Assembly: GCF_011694515.1 (NCBI RefSeq)
Contig: NZ_CP050192.1
Location: forward strand, 1,743,399-1,807,398
Origin: Mycobacterium sp. DL592
Lineage (GTDB): Bacteria > Actinomycetota > Actinomycetes > Mycobacteriales > Mycobacteriaceae
Reading direction: 5' to 3'
Length of the DNA stretch: 64,000 bases
The position numbers and the translations under genes are program-made. Below, piece after piece: positions 13,754 to 22,625 of the stretch. Below the pieces are notes generated by a model, which saw only the letters and a program-made list of their open reading frames with translations, was not told the origin of the DNA and did not search any database. Numbering within the stretch: the stretch's first letter is position 1; every line of letters begins with the position of its first letter.

Positions 13754-13759
13754 TAAGCT
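13754..13759 (+). promoter_or_regulatory. Minus-10 element for the leaderless cysteine leader
   Basis: TAAGCT (TANNNT) is followed by seven bases and the ATG at 13767, so transcription of the sulfate importer operon should start at the A of the leader peptide start codon. Confidence 0.6.
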
Positions 13760-13766
13760 TCGCGCC

Positions 13767-13859
13767 ATGCAATCGGCGACCGGTTACGGCGAGGGCCACA
13801 TCTTGGCCCTCATTGCCGTCGGTGCTTGCGCCGTTGCTGATGTTGCTTGTTGTCGCTGA
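13767..13859 (+). CDS. Leaderless cysteine-codon leader peptide (attenuator) for subI-cysTWA
   Basis: A 30-residue frame beginning MQSATGYGEG and ending VGACAVADVACCR. Its three cysteine codons (TGC, then adjacent TGT TGT) lie in the last twelve residues. It ends 119 bases before subI, and its minus-10 box makes it leaderless. Short leaderless frames ending in cysteine codons have been reported as cysteine-responsive attenuators of sulfur operons in mycobacteria. The expected mechanism is that ribosomes pause here when charged Cys-tRNA is scarce and change the folding or fate of the downstream leader RNA, raising importer expression. The peptide itself is unlikely to act. The following region can form a small stem (ACGGG/CCCGT, 13936-13956), whose role is unclear. 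Confidence 0.7.
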   Translation: MQSATGYGEGHILALIAVGACAVADVACCR

Positions 13860-16728: not shown

Positions 16729-17754
16729 ATGACCACCAATGCGATCACCGTCAGCGGCGCCAACAAGCGTTACGGCGATTTCGTCGCTCTCGATAACATC
16801 GACTTCGTAGTGCCCTCCGGGTCACTGACGGCCCTGCTGGGCCCCAGCGGCTCGGGCAAGTCGACCCTGCTACGAGCGATCGCCGGCCTAGACCAGCCGG
16901 ACACCGGTACCATCACCATCAACGGCCGCGAAGTCACCAATGTGCCGCCGCAGCGCCGGGGGATCGGGTTCGTCTTCCAACACTACGCCGCCTTCAAACA
17001 CCTGACCGTGCGGGACAATGTCGCGTTCGGACTCAAGATCCGCAAGGTCGCCAAGCCGGAGATCAAGGACAAGGTCGACAATCTGCTCGAGGTGGTGGGG
17101 CTGGCGGGATTCCAAAACCGTTATCCCAACCAGCTTTCCGGCGGTCAGCGCCAACGCATGGCGTTGGCCCGGGCCCTTGCGGTCGACCCCGAGGTGCTCC
17201 TGCTCGACGAGCCGTTCGGCGCGCTGGACGCCAAGGTCCGCGAGGACCTGCGGACATGGCTGCGCCGGTTGCACGACGAAGTCCACGTGACGACGGTGCT
17301 GGTGACTCACGACCAGGCCGAAGCGCTCGACGTGGCCGACCGGATCGCAGTGCTCAACAAGGGCCGCATCGAGCAGGTCGGCTCACCGACCGAGGTGTAC
17401 GACAGTCCCGCCAACGCGTTCGTCATGTCCTTCCTGGGCACCGTGTCGGCGCTGAACGGAATCCTGGTGCGTCCGCACGATATTCGGGTGGGCCGCAGCC
17501 CGGACTTGGCCATCGCGGCTGGCGACGGCACCGCGGAGTCCACCGGTGTCATACGGGCCACCATCGACCGCGTGGCCTACCTCGGCTTCGAAGTCCGGGT
17601 GGAACTGACCAGCGCCACCAACGGTGCACCGTTCATCGCCCAGATCACCCGCGGCGACGCCGAGGCGCTTGGCCTTAAGGAAGGTGACACCGTCTACGTG
17701 CGGGCCACCCGGGTGCCGCCGATCGCCGGTGAAGTGCAGGTCGCGGCGAGTTAG
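16729..17754 (+). CDS. cysA: Sulfate ABC transporter ATPase CysA
   Basis: The 341-residue ATPase that powers the SubI-CysTW importer. It has Walker A (GPSGSGKST), signature ([15 protein letters not shown]), Walker B ([12 protein letters not shown]) and H-loop ([11 protein letters not shown]), then a C-terminal TOBE-type regulatory region from about residue 235. It corresponds to cysA1 (Rv2397c) in M. tuberculosis. Its TAG overlaps by four bases the stop of the convergent che1 gene, so the importer and reduction operons meet tail to tail. Confidence 0.93.
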
Positions 17755-18455
17755 GCCGCGGCCCGCTGCGCCACCGCCAGGTCGAACCGGTCCAGCACCG
17801 TCTGGGCGACCAACGGATGTGCGCCCAGTGGCGCTGCCATCACAATGCCTGCGGCACCGGCAATCTCGGCTACCCGGTCGGTGATACGGCCGGGCGCGAT
17901 GAACCACGGCGCCAGGACCACCCGGCTCGCGCCACGCCCCCGTAGAAGTTCGACGCCGTCGAGCACCGAGGGCTGCGGGCCGGTGGCATAGGCAACCTGC
18001 ACGCCCGCCCACCGGGATCCGTCGGCCAGGGCATCGCCCAGTGTCGCCGTTCGGGCGTTGGCCTGTGCGTGCGACGAACCGACCGCCACGACCAGCACCC
18101 CCACGTTCTCGGCGTCACCGGGGATTCCGGCCTGCGCCAGGCGTTCACGCATGACCTCTACGAGGCGGGGGTCCTCACCCAGCGTGTCCGCTTGCAGCAC
18201 GTCGGCGCCCGCGTCGGCGATCATCTCCGGTATGTCGACCCGGGCGTGGTACGCGCTGGCCAGCAGCAGGGGAGTGACGACGGCAGGCCCATTGGTCGCG
18301 CGCAATGCGTCGCGAAGATTCGGAGAGTTCTTCTCGCAGAACGCCACTGATACGTCCAGCGCGGGACGCAGCAGCCGGATCTGCTCGGCGACGGCGTGCG
18401 TGGTCGCCGCGGAACGCGGATCAGCGCTGCCGTGCGCGGTCAGGAGCAGCTTCAC
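17751..18455 (-). CDS. che1: Sirohydrochlorin chelatase (CbiX/Che1-like)
   Basis: A 234-residue CbiX/SirB-type chelatase with the N-terminal metal-site motif [12 protein letters not shown] and a second, related half ([16 protein letters not shown]). It should insert iron into sirohydrochlorin, making the sirohaem that NirA needs. The GTG at 18455 overlaps the cysH stop (GTGA) and is preferred; an ATG at 18473 would add MRTSRF. It is the last gene of nirA-cysH-che1, the order of Rv2391-Rv2393 in M. tuberculosis, so the operon supplies both enzyme and cofactor. Confidence 0.85.
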
Positions 18456-19165
18456 GAAACGTGAAGTCCGCATTCGGTTTTGGCCGAACCGAGCCAACGG
18501 CCGCTGCGCGGGTCGGCGCCGTCGACCGGCTTGGCCGTGCACGGCGCGCAGCCGATCGAGGGGTAGCCCTCGTCGACGAGCGGGTTGACCAGCACACCGT
18601 TGGCGTCGATGTAGGCCTGCATGTCCTCGTCGGTCCACGCCGCGAGCGGATTGACCTTCACCAGGCCGAACGCTTCGTCGAAGGAGATCAGGGGTGCGTT
18701 GGCGCGGGTGGGTGACTCCACCCGGCGAATCCCGGTCACCCAGGCCGAATAGCCTTGCAGCGCTTTACGCAGCGGCGTCACCTTGCGCAGGCGGCAGCAC
18801 TCGTTGGGATCGCGGGCGAAGAGGTCCTTGCCCAGCAGCCGATCCTGCTCGGCGACACTGTGCTCGGCGGTGACGTTGACCACGGTGATGTCGTAGACGG
18901 CTTCGACGGCGTCGCGGGTGCCGATGGTCTCGGCGAAGTGGTAGCCGGTATCGAGAAAGAGCACGTCTACCCCGGGGCGGACTTTGGCGGCAAGGTCGAC
19001 CAGCACGGCGTCCTGCATATTGGAGGCCACCACGTAGCTACCGGCGAAATGCTCGTCAGTCCAGGCCAGGAGTTCGGCGGCGCTGGCTCCGTCCAACTCG
19101 GCGGCCCCGCGCTCCGCCAGTGTCCGCAGGTCAGTCTCGGTCATCTCATGCACCCCAATGGTCAT
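18452..19165 (-). CDS. cysH: Adenylyl-sulfate (APS) reductase CysH
   Basis: A 237-residue assimilatory reductase. The paired cysteine motif ECCRLRKV and a later IGCAPC provide four cysteines for a [4Fe-4S] cluster, which marks the protein as an APS rather than PAPS reductase. The catalytic cysteine is in the C-terminal ECGLH. The nucleotide-binding region includes LFLDTGYHFAET. It reduces APS to sulfite using thioredoxin. The start overlaps the nirA stop (ATGA) and the stop overlaps che1, so the three genes are translationally coupled. Confidence 0.94.
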   Translation of the reverse strand: MTIGVHEMTETDLRTLAERGAAELDGASAAELLAWTDEHFAGSYVVASNMQDAVLVDLAAKVRPGVDVLFLDTGYHFAETIGTRDAVEAVYDITVVNVTAEHSVAEQDRLLGKDLFARDPNECCRLRKVTPLRKALQGYSAWVTGIRRVESPTRANAPLISFDEAFGLVKVNPLAAWTDEDMQAYIDANGVLVNPLVDEGYPSIGCAPCTAKPVDGADPRSGRWLGSAKTECGLHVS

Positions 19166-20835
19166 CGCAAATCAGCCTCGTCAGCGCGCAGCGCCCACTG
19201 GGCGAAACGCTCACCGTCGTGTCTTTGTTTCACGAAGTTGCGCACGACCCGCTCGATGTAGTCGCCCAGCTCGCTGGAGAGCACCTTGTGCTGACGCAGC
19301 TTGCGGCCGAAAGCGCTGTCCAGGCCGAGGCTGCCGCCCAGGTGAACCTGGAACCCTTCCTCCGGTCCGTTACCCTCGTCGACCATCTGTCCCTTGAACC
19401 CGATGTCGGCGATCTGGATGCGGGCGCACGAGTTGGGGCAGCCGTTGATGTTGATGGTCACCGGCACGTCCAGCCCCGCGTTGATGTCCTCGAGGCGCTT
19501 CTCCAAATCGGGCACCAGGCTCTGGGCGCGCACCCGCGTCTCGGCGAAGCTGAGCTTGCAGAACTCGATTCCGGTGCAGGCCATCAGGTTGCGCCGCCAG
19601 TGCGACGGCCTCGACGGCAGACCGAGCGCGTCGAGACCGGCCCGCAGCTCGTCCAACTTGTCGTCGGGGACATCGAGGATGACCAGCTTCTGGTACGGGG
19701 TGAACCGGACCCGGTTGGAGCCCGCGGCCTCGGCCAGGTCGGCGACTGCGGTCAGGATCGTGCCCGAGACGCGGCCCGCGATGGGCGCGACTCCGACGGC
19801 GTTGAGACCGTTCTTCAGCCGTTGTACACCGACGTGGTCGATGGGGCGGACGACGGGCTCGGGTGCCGGGCCGTCGATCAGCGGACGCTTGAGGTATTCC
19901 TGTTCGAGAACTTCCCTGAATTTTTCGATACCCCAGTCCTTGATCAGGAACTTCAGCCGGGCCTTTGCGCGCAACCGCCGGTAGCCGTAGTCGCGGAACA
20001 CGCTGACCACCGCTTCCCAGACATCGGGCACCTCGTCGAGGGGAACCCAGGCGCCCACCCGCTGGCCCAGCATCGGGTTGGTCGACAGGCCGCCGCCGAC
20101 CCACAGGTCGAAACCGGGGCCGTGGTCGGGATGGTTGACCCCGATGAACGCCACGTCGTTGACCTCGTGCACTACGTCCTGCAGACCGCTTATGGCGGTC
20201 TTGAACTTGCGCGGCAGGTTCGAGTACTCCTTCTTGCCGACGTAGCGGCGGACGATCTCGTCGATCGCGGGGGTGCCGTCGAGAACCTCGTCGACGGATT
20301 CGCCGGCCAGCGGCGAGCCGAGCACCACCCGGGGGCAGTCCCCGCACGCCTCGGTGGTCTGCAGGCCGACCTCGTCGAGCCGGCGCCAGATCTCTGGCAT
20401 GTCCTCGACGCGAATCCAGTGGTACTGCACGTTCTCGCGGTCGCTGATGTCGGCGGTATCGCGGGCGAACTCGGTAGAAATGCCGCCGAGGGTGCGTAGC
20501 GCGGCGGTGGTCAGCGCGCCGCCGTCGCTGCGGACCCGCAGCATGAAGTATTCGTCCTCGAGCATGTCGGTGTTCTCGTCACCGGTCCAGGTGCCGTCAT
20601 AGCCGGGCTTGCGCTGGGTGTAGAGGCCCCACCAGCGGAAGCGGCCGCGCAGGTCGCCCTTATCGATGCTGTCGAAGCCGTTCTTGGCGTAGATGTTCTC
20701 GATGCGCTCCCGCACATTGAGCGGGTTGTCGTCCTTCTTGCTCTGCTCGTTCGCGTTGAGCGGCTCGCGATAGCCCAGAGCCCACTGGCCTTCGCCCTTG
20801 GGCCGCTTCTGTGTGGCCTTGGTCGGCTGACTCAT
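19162..20835 (-). CDS. nirA: Ferredoxin-dependent sulfite reductase NirA/SirA
   Basis: A 557-residue sirohaem/[4Fe-4S] enzyme that reduces sulfite to sulfide. Cluster cysteines are in CTGIEFC and NGCPNSC. Tyr72 and Cys164 have the same 92-residue spacing as the Tyr-Cys cross-link reported in the M. tuberculosis enzyme (Tyr69-Cys161), so that modification is probably present. The ATG at 20835 follows GAGGAG at a good distance. That ribosome site lies in a hairpin, and 117 bases further upstream ends a cysteine-codon leader peptide, so translation is probably tuned by cysteine supply. It heads the nirA-cysH-che1 operon. Confidence 0.95.
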   Translation of the reverse strand: MSQPTKATQKRPKGEGQWALGYREPLNANEQSKKDDNPLNVRERIENIYAKNGFDSIDKGDLRGRFRWWGLYTQRKPGYDGTWTGDENTDMLEDEYFMLRVRSDGGALTTAALRTLGGISTEFARDTADISDRENVQYHWIRVEDMPEIWRRLDEVGLQTTEACGDCPRVVLGSPLAGESVDEVLDGTPAIDEIVRRYVGKKEYSNLPRKFKTAISGLQDVVHEVNDVAFIGVNHPDHGPGFDLWVGGGLSTNPMLGQRVGAWVPLDEVPDVWEAVVSVFRDYGYRRLRAKARLKFLIKDWGIEKFREVLEQEYLKRPLIDGPAPEPVVRPIDHVGVQRLKNGLNAVGVAPIAGRVSGTILTAVADLAEAAGSNRVRFTPYQKLVILDVPDDKLDELRAGLDALGLPSRPSHWRRNLMACTGIEFCKLSFAETRVRAQSLVPDLEKRLEDINAGLDVPVTININGCPNSCARIQIADIGFKGQMVDEGNGPEEGFQVHLGGSLGLDSAFGRKLRQHKVLSSELGDYIERVVRNFVKQRHDGERFAQWALRADEADLR

Positions 20836-20842
20836 GAAATGT

Positions 20843-20861
20843 GCTCCTCATGTCAAGGAGC
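20843..20861 (-). promoter_or_regulatory. Hairpin masking the nirA ribosome-binding site
   Basis: In the nirA mRNA, GCTCCT (20861-20856) is perfectly complementary to AGGAGC (20848-20843) across a seven-base loop TGACATG. The 3' arm is the Shine-Dalgarno sequence of nirA. The hairpin should block initiation unless upstream events disrupt it, which fits attenuation through the cysteine leader. Confidence 0.6.
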
Positions 20862-20951
20862 TGACGTTCGGACTGCGCTGATCACCGGTGAGCTGTTCCG
20901 GCGGCGCAGATCCGTCGGCCAGCTGAAGTACGAGCGGGCGGGTCTACGGCG

Positions 20952-21044
20952 TCAAACCAAACAACAACAGGTACAGACGCGCTTGAAATCGACATGGCGC
21001 CGAGCCACCAGTACACCGTTACGCAGTGTCTGAGGTGCAGCCAT
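20952..21044 (-). CDS. Leaderless polycysteine leader peptide for nirA-cysH-che1
   Basis: A 30-residue frame starting MAAPQTLRNGVLV and ending ARRHVDFKRVCTCCCLV. It has four cysteine codons, three of them consecutive TGT, just before the stop. RRHVDxxRV matches a motif I recall from actinobacterial sulfur-gene leader peptides. A minus-10-like CAGAAT lies seven bases before the ATG, so the mRNA should be leaderless. Ribosome stalling at the cysteine run during cysteine shortage would alter folding of the 117-base spacer, including the hairpin over the nirA ribosome site. The 302-base gap 20836-21137 otherwise holds only this element and the hemW promoter. Confidence 0.75.
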   Translation of the reverse strand: MAAPQTLRNGVLVARRHVDFKRVCTCCCLV

Positions 21045-21051
21045 GCGCGCC

Positions 21052-21057
21052 ATTCTG
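21052..21057 (-). promoter_or_regulatory. Minus-10-like element of the nirA leader
   Basis: On the minus strand CAGAAT precedes the leader ATG by seven bases, the same spacing as TAAGCT before the subI leader. It deviates from TANNNT at the first base, so it is a weaker match. Confidence 0.4.
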
Positions 21058-21137: not shown

Positions 21138-22559
21138 ATGTCGGTCCGACCCGTTCCGGCCGTTGTGCCCGAGCTCACTGCCGCCCGGGGCACGGCGTTC
21201 GGCATCTACGTTCACGTGCCTTTTTGCGCCAGCCGCTGCGGGTATTGCGACTTCAACACCTACACCGCCGGGGAACTCGGCGGTGCCACCCCGGAGGGCT
21301 GGCTCGTCGCCGCCCGGGCCGAACTCGCGCTGGCCGCCGAGATGCTCGGCGACGTGACGATCGACACGGTCTTCGTCGGGGGCGGCACGCCGTCGCTGCT
21401 CGGTGGCGCCGGCCTCGCGGCCGTACTGGACGCGATCCGCGCCCACTTCCCGCTGGCCGCCGGCGCCGAGGTCACTACCGAGGCGAACCCCGAGTCGACG
21501 TCGGCGGCGTTCTTCGACCAGATCCGCGCTGCCGGCTATACGCGGGTGTCGCTGGGCATGCAGTCCGCGGTGCCCAGGGTTCTGGCGACGCTGGACCGGA
21601 CCCATTCCCCGGGGCGGGCGCTGCAGGCGGCGGCGCAGGCGCGGGCGGCCGGGTTCGAGCACCTGAACCTCGATCTGATCTACGGCACACCGGGGGAGTC
21701 CGACGACGACCTGCGGCAGTCGGTCGAAGCGGTGCTCTCCGCCGACGTCGACCACGTGTCGGCCTACGCACTGGTGGTGGAGGAGGGGACCGCGCTGGCA
21801 CGGCGGGTTCGGCGCGGCGAGGTCACCCGGCCCGACGACGACGTGCTGGCCCACCGTTATGAACTCCTGGACTCGTGGTTGTCGGCGGCGGGCTTCGACT
21901 GGTACGAGGTGTCCAACTGGAGCAAGCCCGGCGGTGAGTGCCTGCACAACCTTGGCTACTGGAACGGCGGCCAGTGGTGGGGTGTGGGTCCCGGTGCGCA
22001 CGGCTTCGTCGGCGACACCCGGTGGTGGAATGTCAAGCATCCCAACGCTTATGCGGAGCGGCTCAGCGAAAAGCTCATGCCGGTGGCCGATTTCGAGCGC
22101 CTCGGTGCCCATGACCGCCACGTCGAGGATGTGCTGCTGCGGATTCGGTTGAGCAGCGGTCTGCCGCTGGAGGTTCTCACCGACTCGGAACGGGCACGGG
22201 CCGGGCAGGCGGTGTCCGACGGTCTGCTGACGCGCAACGCCGACCGGCTGGTGCTGACCCCGCGGGGCAGGCTGTTGGCCGACGCCGTGGTGCGTGACGT
22301 CCTCGACGAACTAGTACTGGGCGCCGGTCCCGGCGTCCATGTCGTAGACCCGCGCGTGCAACACGGTGCGGTTCCGCAGGGCCGCGCGCACCGCCCGGTG
22401 CAGGCCGTCTTCGAGGTAGACCACGCCGTGCCACTTGACCGCATGGGGGAACAGGTCGCCGTAGAACGTCGAGTCTTCCGACAGCAACCGATCCAGCGCC
22501 AGCACGGTGGTGGTCGTGACGAGCTCGTCCAGGCGGATCTGTCGCGGCGGGATCTGTGA
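21138..22559 (+). CDS. hemW: Radical SAM HemW-like protein with an abnormal C-terminal extension
   Basis: A HemW/HemN-type radical SAM protein: FGIYVHVPFCASRCGYCDFN carries the CxxxCxxC cluster motif close to the N-terminus, followed by the SAM-binding GGGTPS and the C-terminal HemN domain (WSKPGGECLHNLGYWNGGQW). HemW proteins act in haem handling. The start ATG at 21138 follows a TAGGGT minus-10 box at about 21117. The family usually ends near residue 390, just after LLADAVVRDVLDEL. Here no stop occurs and the frame runs about 83 codons more, antisense through the convergent gene at 22311-22625. The extra residues are Arg/His/Gln-rich and look like antisense translation. A lost stop, a frameshift or a sequencing error could explain this. 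Confidence 0.85.
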   Translation: MSVRPVPAVVPELTAARGTAFGIYVHVPFCASRCGYCDFNTYTAGELGGATPEGWLVAARAELALAAEMLGDVTIDTVFVGGGTPSLLGGAGLAAVLDAIRAHFPLAAGAEVTTEANPESTSAAFFDQIRAAGYTRVSLGMQSAVPRVLATLDRTHSPGRALQAAAQARAAGFEHLNLDLIYGTPGESDDDLRQSVEAVLSADVDHVSAYALVVEEGTALARRVRRGEVTRPDDDVLAHRYELLDSWLSAAGFDWYEVSNWSKPGGECLHNLGYWNGGQWWGVGPGAHGFVGDTRWWNVKHPNAYAERLSEKLMPVADFERLGAHDRHVEDVLLRIRLSSGLPLEVLTDSERARAGQAVSDGLLTRNADRLVLTPRGRLLADAVVRDVLDELVLGAGPGVHVVDPRVQHGAVPQGRAHRPVQAVFEVDHAVPLDRMGEQVAVERRVFRQQPIQRQHGGGRDELVQADLSRRDL

Positions 22560-22625
22560 CCAGTCACGGTAGGTCAGCCCGTGCTCCGGATACGGCTTAC
22601 CTTCCCGGACGCCCTTGAAGATCAT
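22311..22625 (-). CDS. Conserved small mycobacterial protein (Rv2375-like)
   Basis: A 104-residue protein beginning MIFKGVREGKPYPEHG, with VTTTTVLALDRLLSEDSTFY and a basic second half (DGLHRAVRAALRNRTVLHAR). Its place next to hrcA and its length match Rv2375 of M. tuberculosis. It is a soluble protein of unknown function, with no motif I can assign. Most of its coding strand is overlapped by the abnormal hemW extension; codon pattern and conservation favour this gene as the real one. Confidence 0.7.
   Translation of the reverse strand: MIFKGVREGKPYPEHGLTYRDWSQIPPRQIRLDELVTTTTVLALDRLLSEDSTFYGDLFPHAVKWHGVVYLEDGLHRAVRAALRNRTVLHARVYDMDAGTGAQY

Follow-up and report, generated by a model that had tools for sequence, protein, structure and literature searches.

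The 64,000-nt stretch of DNA analysed here (the window) very probably carries the cysteine-responsive leader of a nirA-cysH-chelatase operon, the counterpart of the nirA/Msmeg_4527 leader. Its core is a putatively leaderless polycysteine small open reading frame (sORF; 20952–21044, minus strand) encoding an Ms4527A-type leader peptide, MAAPQTLRNGVLVARRHVDFKRVCTCCCLV, followed by TGA. The frame opens with ATG at 21044–21042, runs for 30 codons and closes with TGA at 20954–20952. The cysteine tract (20961–20975, minus strand) reads TGT ACC TGT TGT TGT, or C T C C C, within a terminal VCTCCCLV; all four Cys codons are TGT (20975–20973, 20969–20967, 20966–20964 and 20963–20961) and the last three are consecutive, which places a run of Cys codons near the C-terminus as in leaderless polycysteine attenuators. 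The first-pass annotation had described this 30-codon frame, with its VCTCCCLV ending, four Cys codons and three TGT in a row, and its coordinates are confirmed. It had also taken the frame for a Cys-codon leaderless attenuator of a known type, a reading borne out by the published nirA/Msmeg_4527 counterpart and by alignment to NCBIfam family NF042936. On sequence grounds this identity is well supported, because the leader has a published counterpart before the same gene.

In the account of Canestrari and colleagues, cysteine-responsive attenuators are said to consist of a leaderless sORF with consecutive Cys codons that controls the downstream genes. The window leader has the consecutive Cys codons and is predicted to share the leaderless start and the control of downstream genes with the attenuators of that study, which is cited for cysteine-responsive attenuation in M. 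smegmatis (Canestrari et al. 2020, as cited in PMC13236596, PMC9031893 and PMC9094748). Shell et al. (2015, PMC4633059) described a Cys-enriched leaderless sORF that precedes nirA/Msmeg_4527 in both M. tuberculosis and M. smegmatis, and the window leader resembles it in downstream gene, position, C-terminal Cys cluster and motif. The passages of that paper on the nirA/Msmeg_4527 leader describe no hairpin over the Shine-Dalgarno (SD) sequence, whereas the window leader has one. Candidate polycysteine leader peptides have also been put forward before mycobacterial cys operons (Seliverstov et al. 2005, PMC1262725); that study reports no conserved terminator hairpins and suggests Rho, and its section on cysteine contains no SD-sequestering hairpin. 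The eight leader peptides given in a reannotation of Streptomyces lividans include no cysteine leader. The cysteine sensor is of an already known kind and lies at a known place, this species carrying a published cysteine-sensing leader at the same position. The conserved RNA element between the sORF and the SD hairpin is less well described than the sensor, and the question narrows to how a ribosome stalled at the Cys codons would act on an SD sequence about 100 nt away.

The genes downstream of the leader resemble sulfite/nitrite reductase, APS/PAPS reductase and sirohydrochlorin chelatase, which supports the cysteine-leader reading. All three lie on the minus strand. The first, nirA (19162–20835), encodes a nirA-type ferredoxin-dependent nitrite/sulfite reductase of 557 aa whose best NCBIfam match, PRK09566 (319.1 bits), is below that model's cut-off of 594. 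The product of cysH (18452–19165), an adenylyl-/phosphoadenylyl-sulfate reductase, exceeds the cut-offs of both TIGR02055 (252.9 bits, cut-off 235.3) and NF002537 (275.4, cut-off 154). The sirohydrochlorin-chelatase-like protein (17751–18455; formerly annotated che1) matches NF033198 with 72.3 bits, below its cut-off of 120. The nirA stop and cysH start overlap as ATGA and the cysH stop and chelatase-like start as GTGA, so control exerted at the nirA ribosome binding site can reach all three genes.

Like the Ms4527A family of Cys-rich leader peptides (NF042936), the window sORF is directly upstream of nirA and in the same orientation. It aligns to model positions 3–20 of 21 with 43.2 bits (E 2.1e-11; a 33-aa version of the frame scores 42.9), and since this is 1.8 bits under the cut-off of 45 we regard it as an Ms4527A counterpart by position and alignment, not as a named member. 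One relative (L032) is above the cut-off with 49.0 bits. The window peptide ends in LV, while most relatives end in LP or LA.

Conservation of the leader peptide and its promoter

Relatives of the nirA locus came from two sources: 118 genomes of the genus, of which 116 gave a match, 30 loci being retained, and genome contigs, for which the best 80 among the matches listed were taken. The resulting set of 111 loci is partly redundant (the genome sets overlap, and L001 and L002 denote one locus); it yielded 102 distinct leaders, classed by locus list and spacing as 79 of Mycobacterium type and 23 of Nocardia/Rhodococcus type. Removal of near-identical sequences left 73 Mycobacterium leaders, from which 50 were picked by eye for an aligned SD arm to give alignment A1; figures from A1 lean towards structure, and all of the conservation statistics ignore the kinship of the sequences.

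A frame with the strict pattern RRH[VI]D precedes nirA in 106 of the 111 loci, which include the best 80 among the matches listed, and on this basis the sORF is not a chance frame. Among the others, L003, L005 and L021 have an RLH form in place of RRH, on the L098 contig nirA is preceded by only 112 nt, and in L051 no RRH[VI]D-like frame was found upstream of nirA. The titles of the hosts with a conserved sORF name Mycobacterium, Mycolicibacterium, Mycobacteroides, Rhodococcus, Rhodococcoides, Prescottella and Nocardia. Some Nocardia and Rhodococcus leaders have a reduced Cys run, for example VCSASCLP (L090, L097, L104) or VCSCLES (L109).

Upstream of the frame, a -10-like hexamer, CAGAAT (21052–21057, minus strand), stands 7 nt before the sORF ATG. 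The same signature, CA[CG]AAT (once CAGACT) placed 6–7 nt before an in-frame ATG or GTG, is present in 101 of the 102 distinct leaders, the window's included and L068 being the single exception, compared with none of 200 out-of-frame control starts. This promoter signature strongly backs the predicted leaderless transcription of the sORF.

Cys-rich leaders of other families occur elsewhere in the same genome. The window itself contains a second one, MQSATGYGEGHILALIAVGACAVADVACCR (13767–13859, plus strand), which lies before sulfate ABC transporter genes, has a -10-like TAAGCT at 13754–13759 and belongs to the Ms4533A family (NF042937, 47.4 bits, cut-off 31); the other short Cys-rich frames in the window were judged by inspection to be mostly antisense or out-of-frame chance frames. 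By inspection of the sequence, two more leaders precede a cysA2-like gene and a gene for an SsuA-like substrate-binding protein. The cysA2-like leader (L139; G000:C1:592752–592808, minus strand), which has six Cys codons in a row, matches the Ms5788A family (NF042933, 54.9 bits, cut-off 45), and the SsuA-like leader (L140, VTPALRSQLTRRLHIDLQRVIAAACCGLRGFARFR; G000:C1:559720–559773, minus strand) scores 22.6 bits against NF042934, below the cut-off of 27. A guess that NF042935 was another Cys leader family turned out wrong. A search of the genome with an RRH[VI]D-like DNA pattern gave 27 matches, among which the nirA leader was by inspection the only short Cys-rich leader; the cysA2-like and SsuA-like leaders escape this pattern and came from the NF042934 search.

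Three leaders before different genes have a related stretch in common: RRHVDFKRV in the window sORF (21044–20952), KRRAVDLCRV in the cysA2-like leader and RRLHIDLQRV in the SsuA-like leader. The stretch is thus kept across unrelated RNA contexts, suggesting a role for the peptide itself. Such a role might extend to the stall, with LVxRRHVDxKRVC acting in the exit tunnel to set or strengthen it beyond the effect of the Cys codons, a reading that we consider rather unlikely. It would fit the conservation of the residues around the pattern in 98 unique leaders, where L and V precede it in 98 each and are followed after it by R in 98, K in 96 and V in 94 (the R, R, H and D are fixed by the search pattern RRH[VI]D itself), and the synonymous variation in the codons of the conserved residues. 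Against this, three leaders carry RLH for RRH, the subI leader of the Ms4533A family in the same window does without the motif, and the same bases may have a function at the nucleotide level.

A hairpin over the nirA Shine-Dalgarno sequence

The nirA SD sequence, AGGAG, is spaced 8 nt from the nirA ATG (20835–20833) and falls within a hairpin (20843–20861, minus strand; strands 3 and 4) in which GCTCCT (20861–20856) is perfectly complementary to AGGAGC (20848–20843), just as first annotated. Two further G-U pairs extend the helix to 8 contiguous pairs in our scan. The spacing given at that time, 117 bases from sORF to hairpin, has to be corrected: the hairpin begins 90 nt past the sORF stop, and it is the nirA start that follows after 116 nt. 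An Rfam search of the window at the gathering score returned only a tRNA and no cis-regulatory RNA, and the two matches at 20860–20924 were both far below the gathering score, which offers no riboswitch or other Rfam family as an identity for the leader.

In the window sequence alone the SD hairpin is modestly surprising, because contiguous SD-covering helices of at least 6 and at least 7 pairs appear in 6.2% and 2.7%, respectively, of 2000 dinucleotide shuffles of the upstream sequence. The whole 259-nt leader folds no better than its shuffles (z -0.54). Among the relatives, an SD-covering helix of at least 5 pairs is found in 45 of the 50 A1 leaders (shuffles 16.4%) and in 10 of the 29 other Mycobacterium leaders (shuffles 10.4%). 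The selection of A1 by eye makes the pooled count, 55 of 79, the fair one for Mycobacterium. Among the Nocardia/Rhodococcus-type leaders such a helix occurs in none of 23 (shuffles 16.4%). We conclude that the SD hairpin is real in one large part of Mycobacterium and lineage-limited. The 24 Mycobacterium and 23 Nocardia/Rhodococcus-type leaders from which it is absent have kept the sORF, so the hairpin cannot be the universal output, and it seems that one sensor was kept while the output structure was remade around it.

In the alignment rows, L053, L058, L061, L071, L078, L086, L088 and L093–L096 have the sORF without a visible GCTCC/GGAGC hairpin, and rows of this kind include leaders of M. 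asiaticum, M. sherrisii and M. colombiense.

These counts bear on the proposal that the hairpin is incidental, or merely sets a constant low expression, with nirA responding to cysteine only via its promoter. The shuffle frequencies for the window sequence (6.2–2.7% for helices of 6–7 pairs or more) would allow for this, as would a modelled occupancy that hardly shifts with a ribosome present (see below). However, it is made improbable by the retention of the SD hairpin in 55 of the 79 Mycobacterium leaders, compared with 10–16% of shuffles, and by the cysteine attenuation reported for relatives (Canestrari et al. 2020, as cited).

Competing strands between the sORF and nirA

The intercistronic region contains further complementary strands which could compete with the SD hairpin. 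Strand 1 (20926–20951, minus strand) follows directly on the sORF stop and is able to pair with strand 2 (as partner of strand 1, CAGCTGGCCGACGGATCTGCG), the 1:2 duplex in the window having an energy of -19.0 (z -1.8). The AGCTGGC of strand 2 (20918–20924, minus strand), an anti-anti-SD strand, can instead pair with GTCAGCT of strand 3 (20859–20865, minus strand), part of which also belongs to the 5' arm of the SD hairpin; this 2:3 duplex has a z of -4.8 in the window. Compared with shuffled partners, the A1 duplexes gave mean z values of -2.53 (1:2), -2.65 (2:3) and -1.72 (3:4), with p <= 0.05 in 35, 39 and 21 of the 50 leaders, respectively. For 20 leaders outside A1 the means were -1.96, -1.41 and -0.22 (p <= 0.05 in 10, 7 and 3 of 20), the 3:4 duplex being no better there than shuffles. 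These tests used 70 of the 79 leaders, nine having been skipped by the anchor search, and some of the segment cuts are imperfect.

In A1, 99.1% of the cells of the outer 2:3 helix are paired, and base changes in all three helices mostly keep the pairs. Changes on both sides of a pair are few and within the range of shuffles (three pairs in 1:2, one in 2:3 and two in 3:4), and only the percentage of paired cells in 3:4 (84.9 versus 83.7) comes near the edge, a level reached by 14 of 500 shuffles. Controls in which the strands were slid carry little weight, because the structures were derived from the same sequences. The complementarity of the 1:2, 2:3 and 3:4 strands is therefore conserved, without covariation beyond shuffles. 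With that same limit on covariation, the leader has the two features of an SD-sequestering translation attenuator: a hairpin over the SD and a competing alternative helix.

A mechanism can be proposed for this arrangement. The transcript would start at the sORF ATG. With Cys-tRNA plentiful, ribosomes would run through the Cys codons and leave, after which strands 3 and 4 would pair over the nirA SD and nirA would be poorly translated. When cysteine is short, ribosomes would stall in the Cys tract and disturb the leader RNA, strand 3 being drawn during the stall into the long 2:3 hairpin (20924–20918 with 20865–20859) and the SD freed; we infer this step from the stalled ribosome to the shift from 3:4 to 2:3. 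Expression of cysH and the chelatase gene would then follow that of nirA by coupling at the ATGA and GTGA overlaps.

In translation attenuators of the ermC type, a ribosome stalled by the leader peptide frees the SD by strand exchange. In those systems stall site and masked strand overlap, whereas in the window leader about 90 nt or more separate the SD hairpin from the site of stalling. A ribosome at the last Cys codon is predicted to reach approximately to the end of the stop codon, some 90 nt short of the hairpin. Some intermediate strand must carry the signal.

We modelled the stalled ribosome by removing the RNA up to an assumed leading edge (P-site + 15 nt) and computing equilibrium pairing for 50 leaders, a treatment that covers neither kinetic folding nor pseudoknots. 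With no ribosome and 60 nt of the sORF included, the mean predicted probabilities were 0.56 for 1:2, 0.21 for 2:3 and 0.69 for 3:4, with the SD unpaired at 0.21; stalling the ribosome at the first or at the last Cys codon moved 2:3 only to 0.28 or 0.26 and the unpaired SD to 0.22. In the window the SD hairpin has a predicted probability of 0.99 when no ribosome is placed, and of 0.97 or 0.95 when one sits at the first or last Cys codon, the SD being unpaired at no more than 0.02 with a stall at the Cys codons. Only a mask reaching 15 nt past the stop shifts the window (2:3 at 0.34, SD unpaired at 0.10), and masked folding across 95 of the 102 leaders had similarly little effect. Equilibrium folding with a masked ribosome therefore fails to reproduce the switch. 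The earlier interpretation is partly supported: the type of attenuator holds well, and the toggling of this SD hairpin by stalled ribosomes is plausible, although equilibrium folding scarcely frees the SD. The switch may instead depend on the kinetics of folding, on pseudoknots or on a further strand.

The Cys tract and the inner hairpin

One candidate for such a strand is the Cys tract itself, whose codon usage is unusual. TGT accounts for 220 of the 297 codons at the four Cys positions of the 79 Mycobacterium leaders, whereas the nirA genes that go with them use it for 7% of 516 Cys codons. Position 13, the last Cys, is always TGT (79 of 79), and position 11 is TGT in 68 of 72 Mycobacterium leaders; Ser10 is AGC in 47 of 47 and Pro15 is CCT in 35 of 50. 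The His, Asp, Val and Pro codons of the sORF likewise drift from nirA usage, and part of the TGT bias is therefore relaxed usage, above which positions 11 and 13 stand out. The bias may reflect slower decoding or a contact made by the RNA.

A possible partner is an inner hairpin between the sORF and nirA (20883–20903, minus strand), in which CGCCGG and CCGGTG enclose the loop AACAGCTCA with a conserved CAGC (20895–20892). A CAGC-loop hairpin is present in 59 of the 79 Mycobacterium leaders (shuffles 9.5%) and 14 of the 23 Nocardia/Rhodococcus-type leaders (shuffles 17.1%), in a test framed only after the sequences had been viewed. The stems differ, examples being CGCCGG/CCGGTG, GGCGTGAG/CTCACGCC and GAGGA/TCCTC.

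Codons 12–14 (GYUGUC) could pair with GGACAGC of this hairpin, such that a stalled ribosome would break the contact and thereby free the 2:3 helix. The pairing is kept in 95.3% of A1 cells and has a mean predicted probability of 0.34 without a ribosome in the 48 of 50 A1 leaders with the element (above 0.3 in 20 of them), and a strand function would also suit the invariant TGT of the last Cys and AGC of Ser10. However, its probability in the window itself is 0.001, and synonymous codon nulls reach 0.198 and 0.220 against the real 0.341, the real value being higher in only 26 and 31 of 48 leaders. Moreover, duplexes of the Cys tract with downstream RNA show no excess over synonymous versions (group mean z -0.85 to +1.88; 76 of 79 leaders), and the pairing of tract and loop shows no covariation beyond shuffles. 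We treat the predicted contact as a lead only, and doubt that the tract works as an RNA strand in this way.

A broader and equally speculative conjecture joins these parts into one conserved RNA element of the Mycobacteriales, for which the Rfam search gave no match, comprising the CAGC-loop hairpin, the anti-anti-SD strand and, in part of Mycobacterium, the SD hairpin, together with Cys codons that contact the loop and a stall aided by RRHVDxKR. If true, the leader would read Cys-tRNA through RNA contact and peptide together and not by codon count alone.

Termination as a possible alternative output

The signal from the sORF might act on transcription instead, a ribosome stalled in it or released from it exposing or hiding a C-rich stretch before nirA such that Rho ends the transcript when cysteine is plentiful. 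Rho was suggested for mycobacterial cys leaders in 2005, in terms its authors called rather weak (PMC1262725). The intercistronic region is richer in C than in G (0.382 and 0.284 in 79 relatives; 0.36 and 0.28 in the window), and no U-tract follows the hairpin, so this is no intrinsic terminator; that candidate was rejected, TTTT from -12 to +6 of the start occurring in 0 of 79 leaders. Yet the conserved parts of the region are the complementary arms, and a later paper terms the cysteine genes of M. smegmatis regulated by translation attenuation. We consider Rho attenuation improbable here.

A side observation concerns the hemW frame (21138–22556, plus strand), which stays open for about 120 codons past the end of its HemW family match (residue 351 of 473). 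This extension overlies an antisense frame of 104 aa at 22311–22625.
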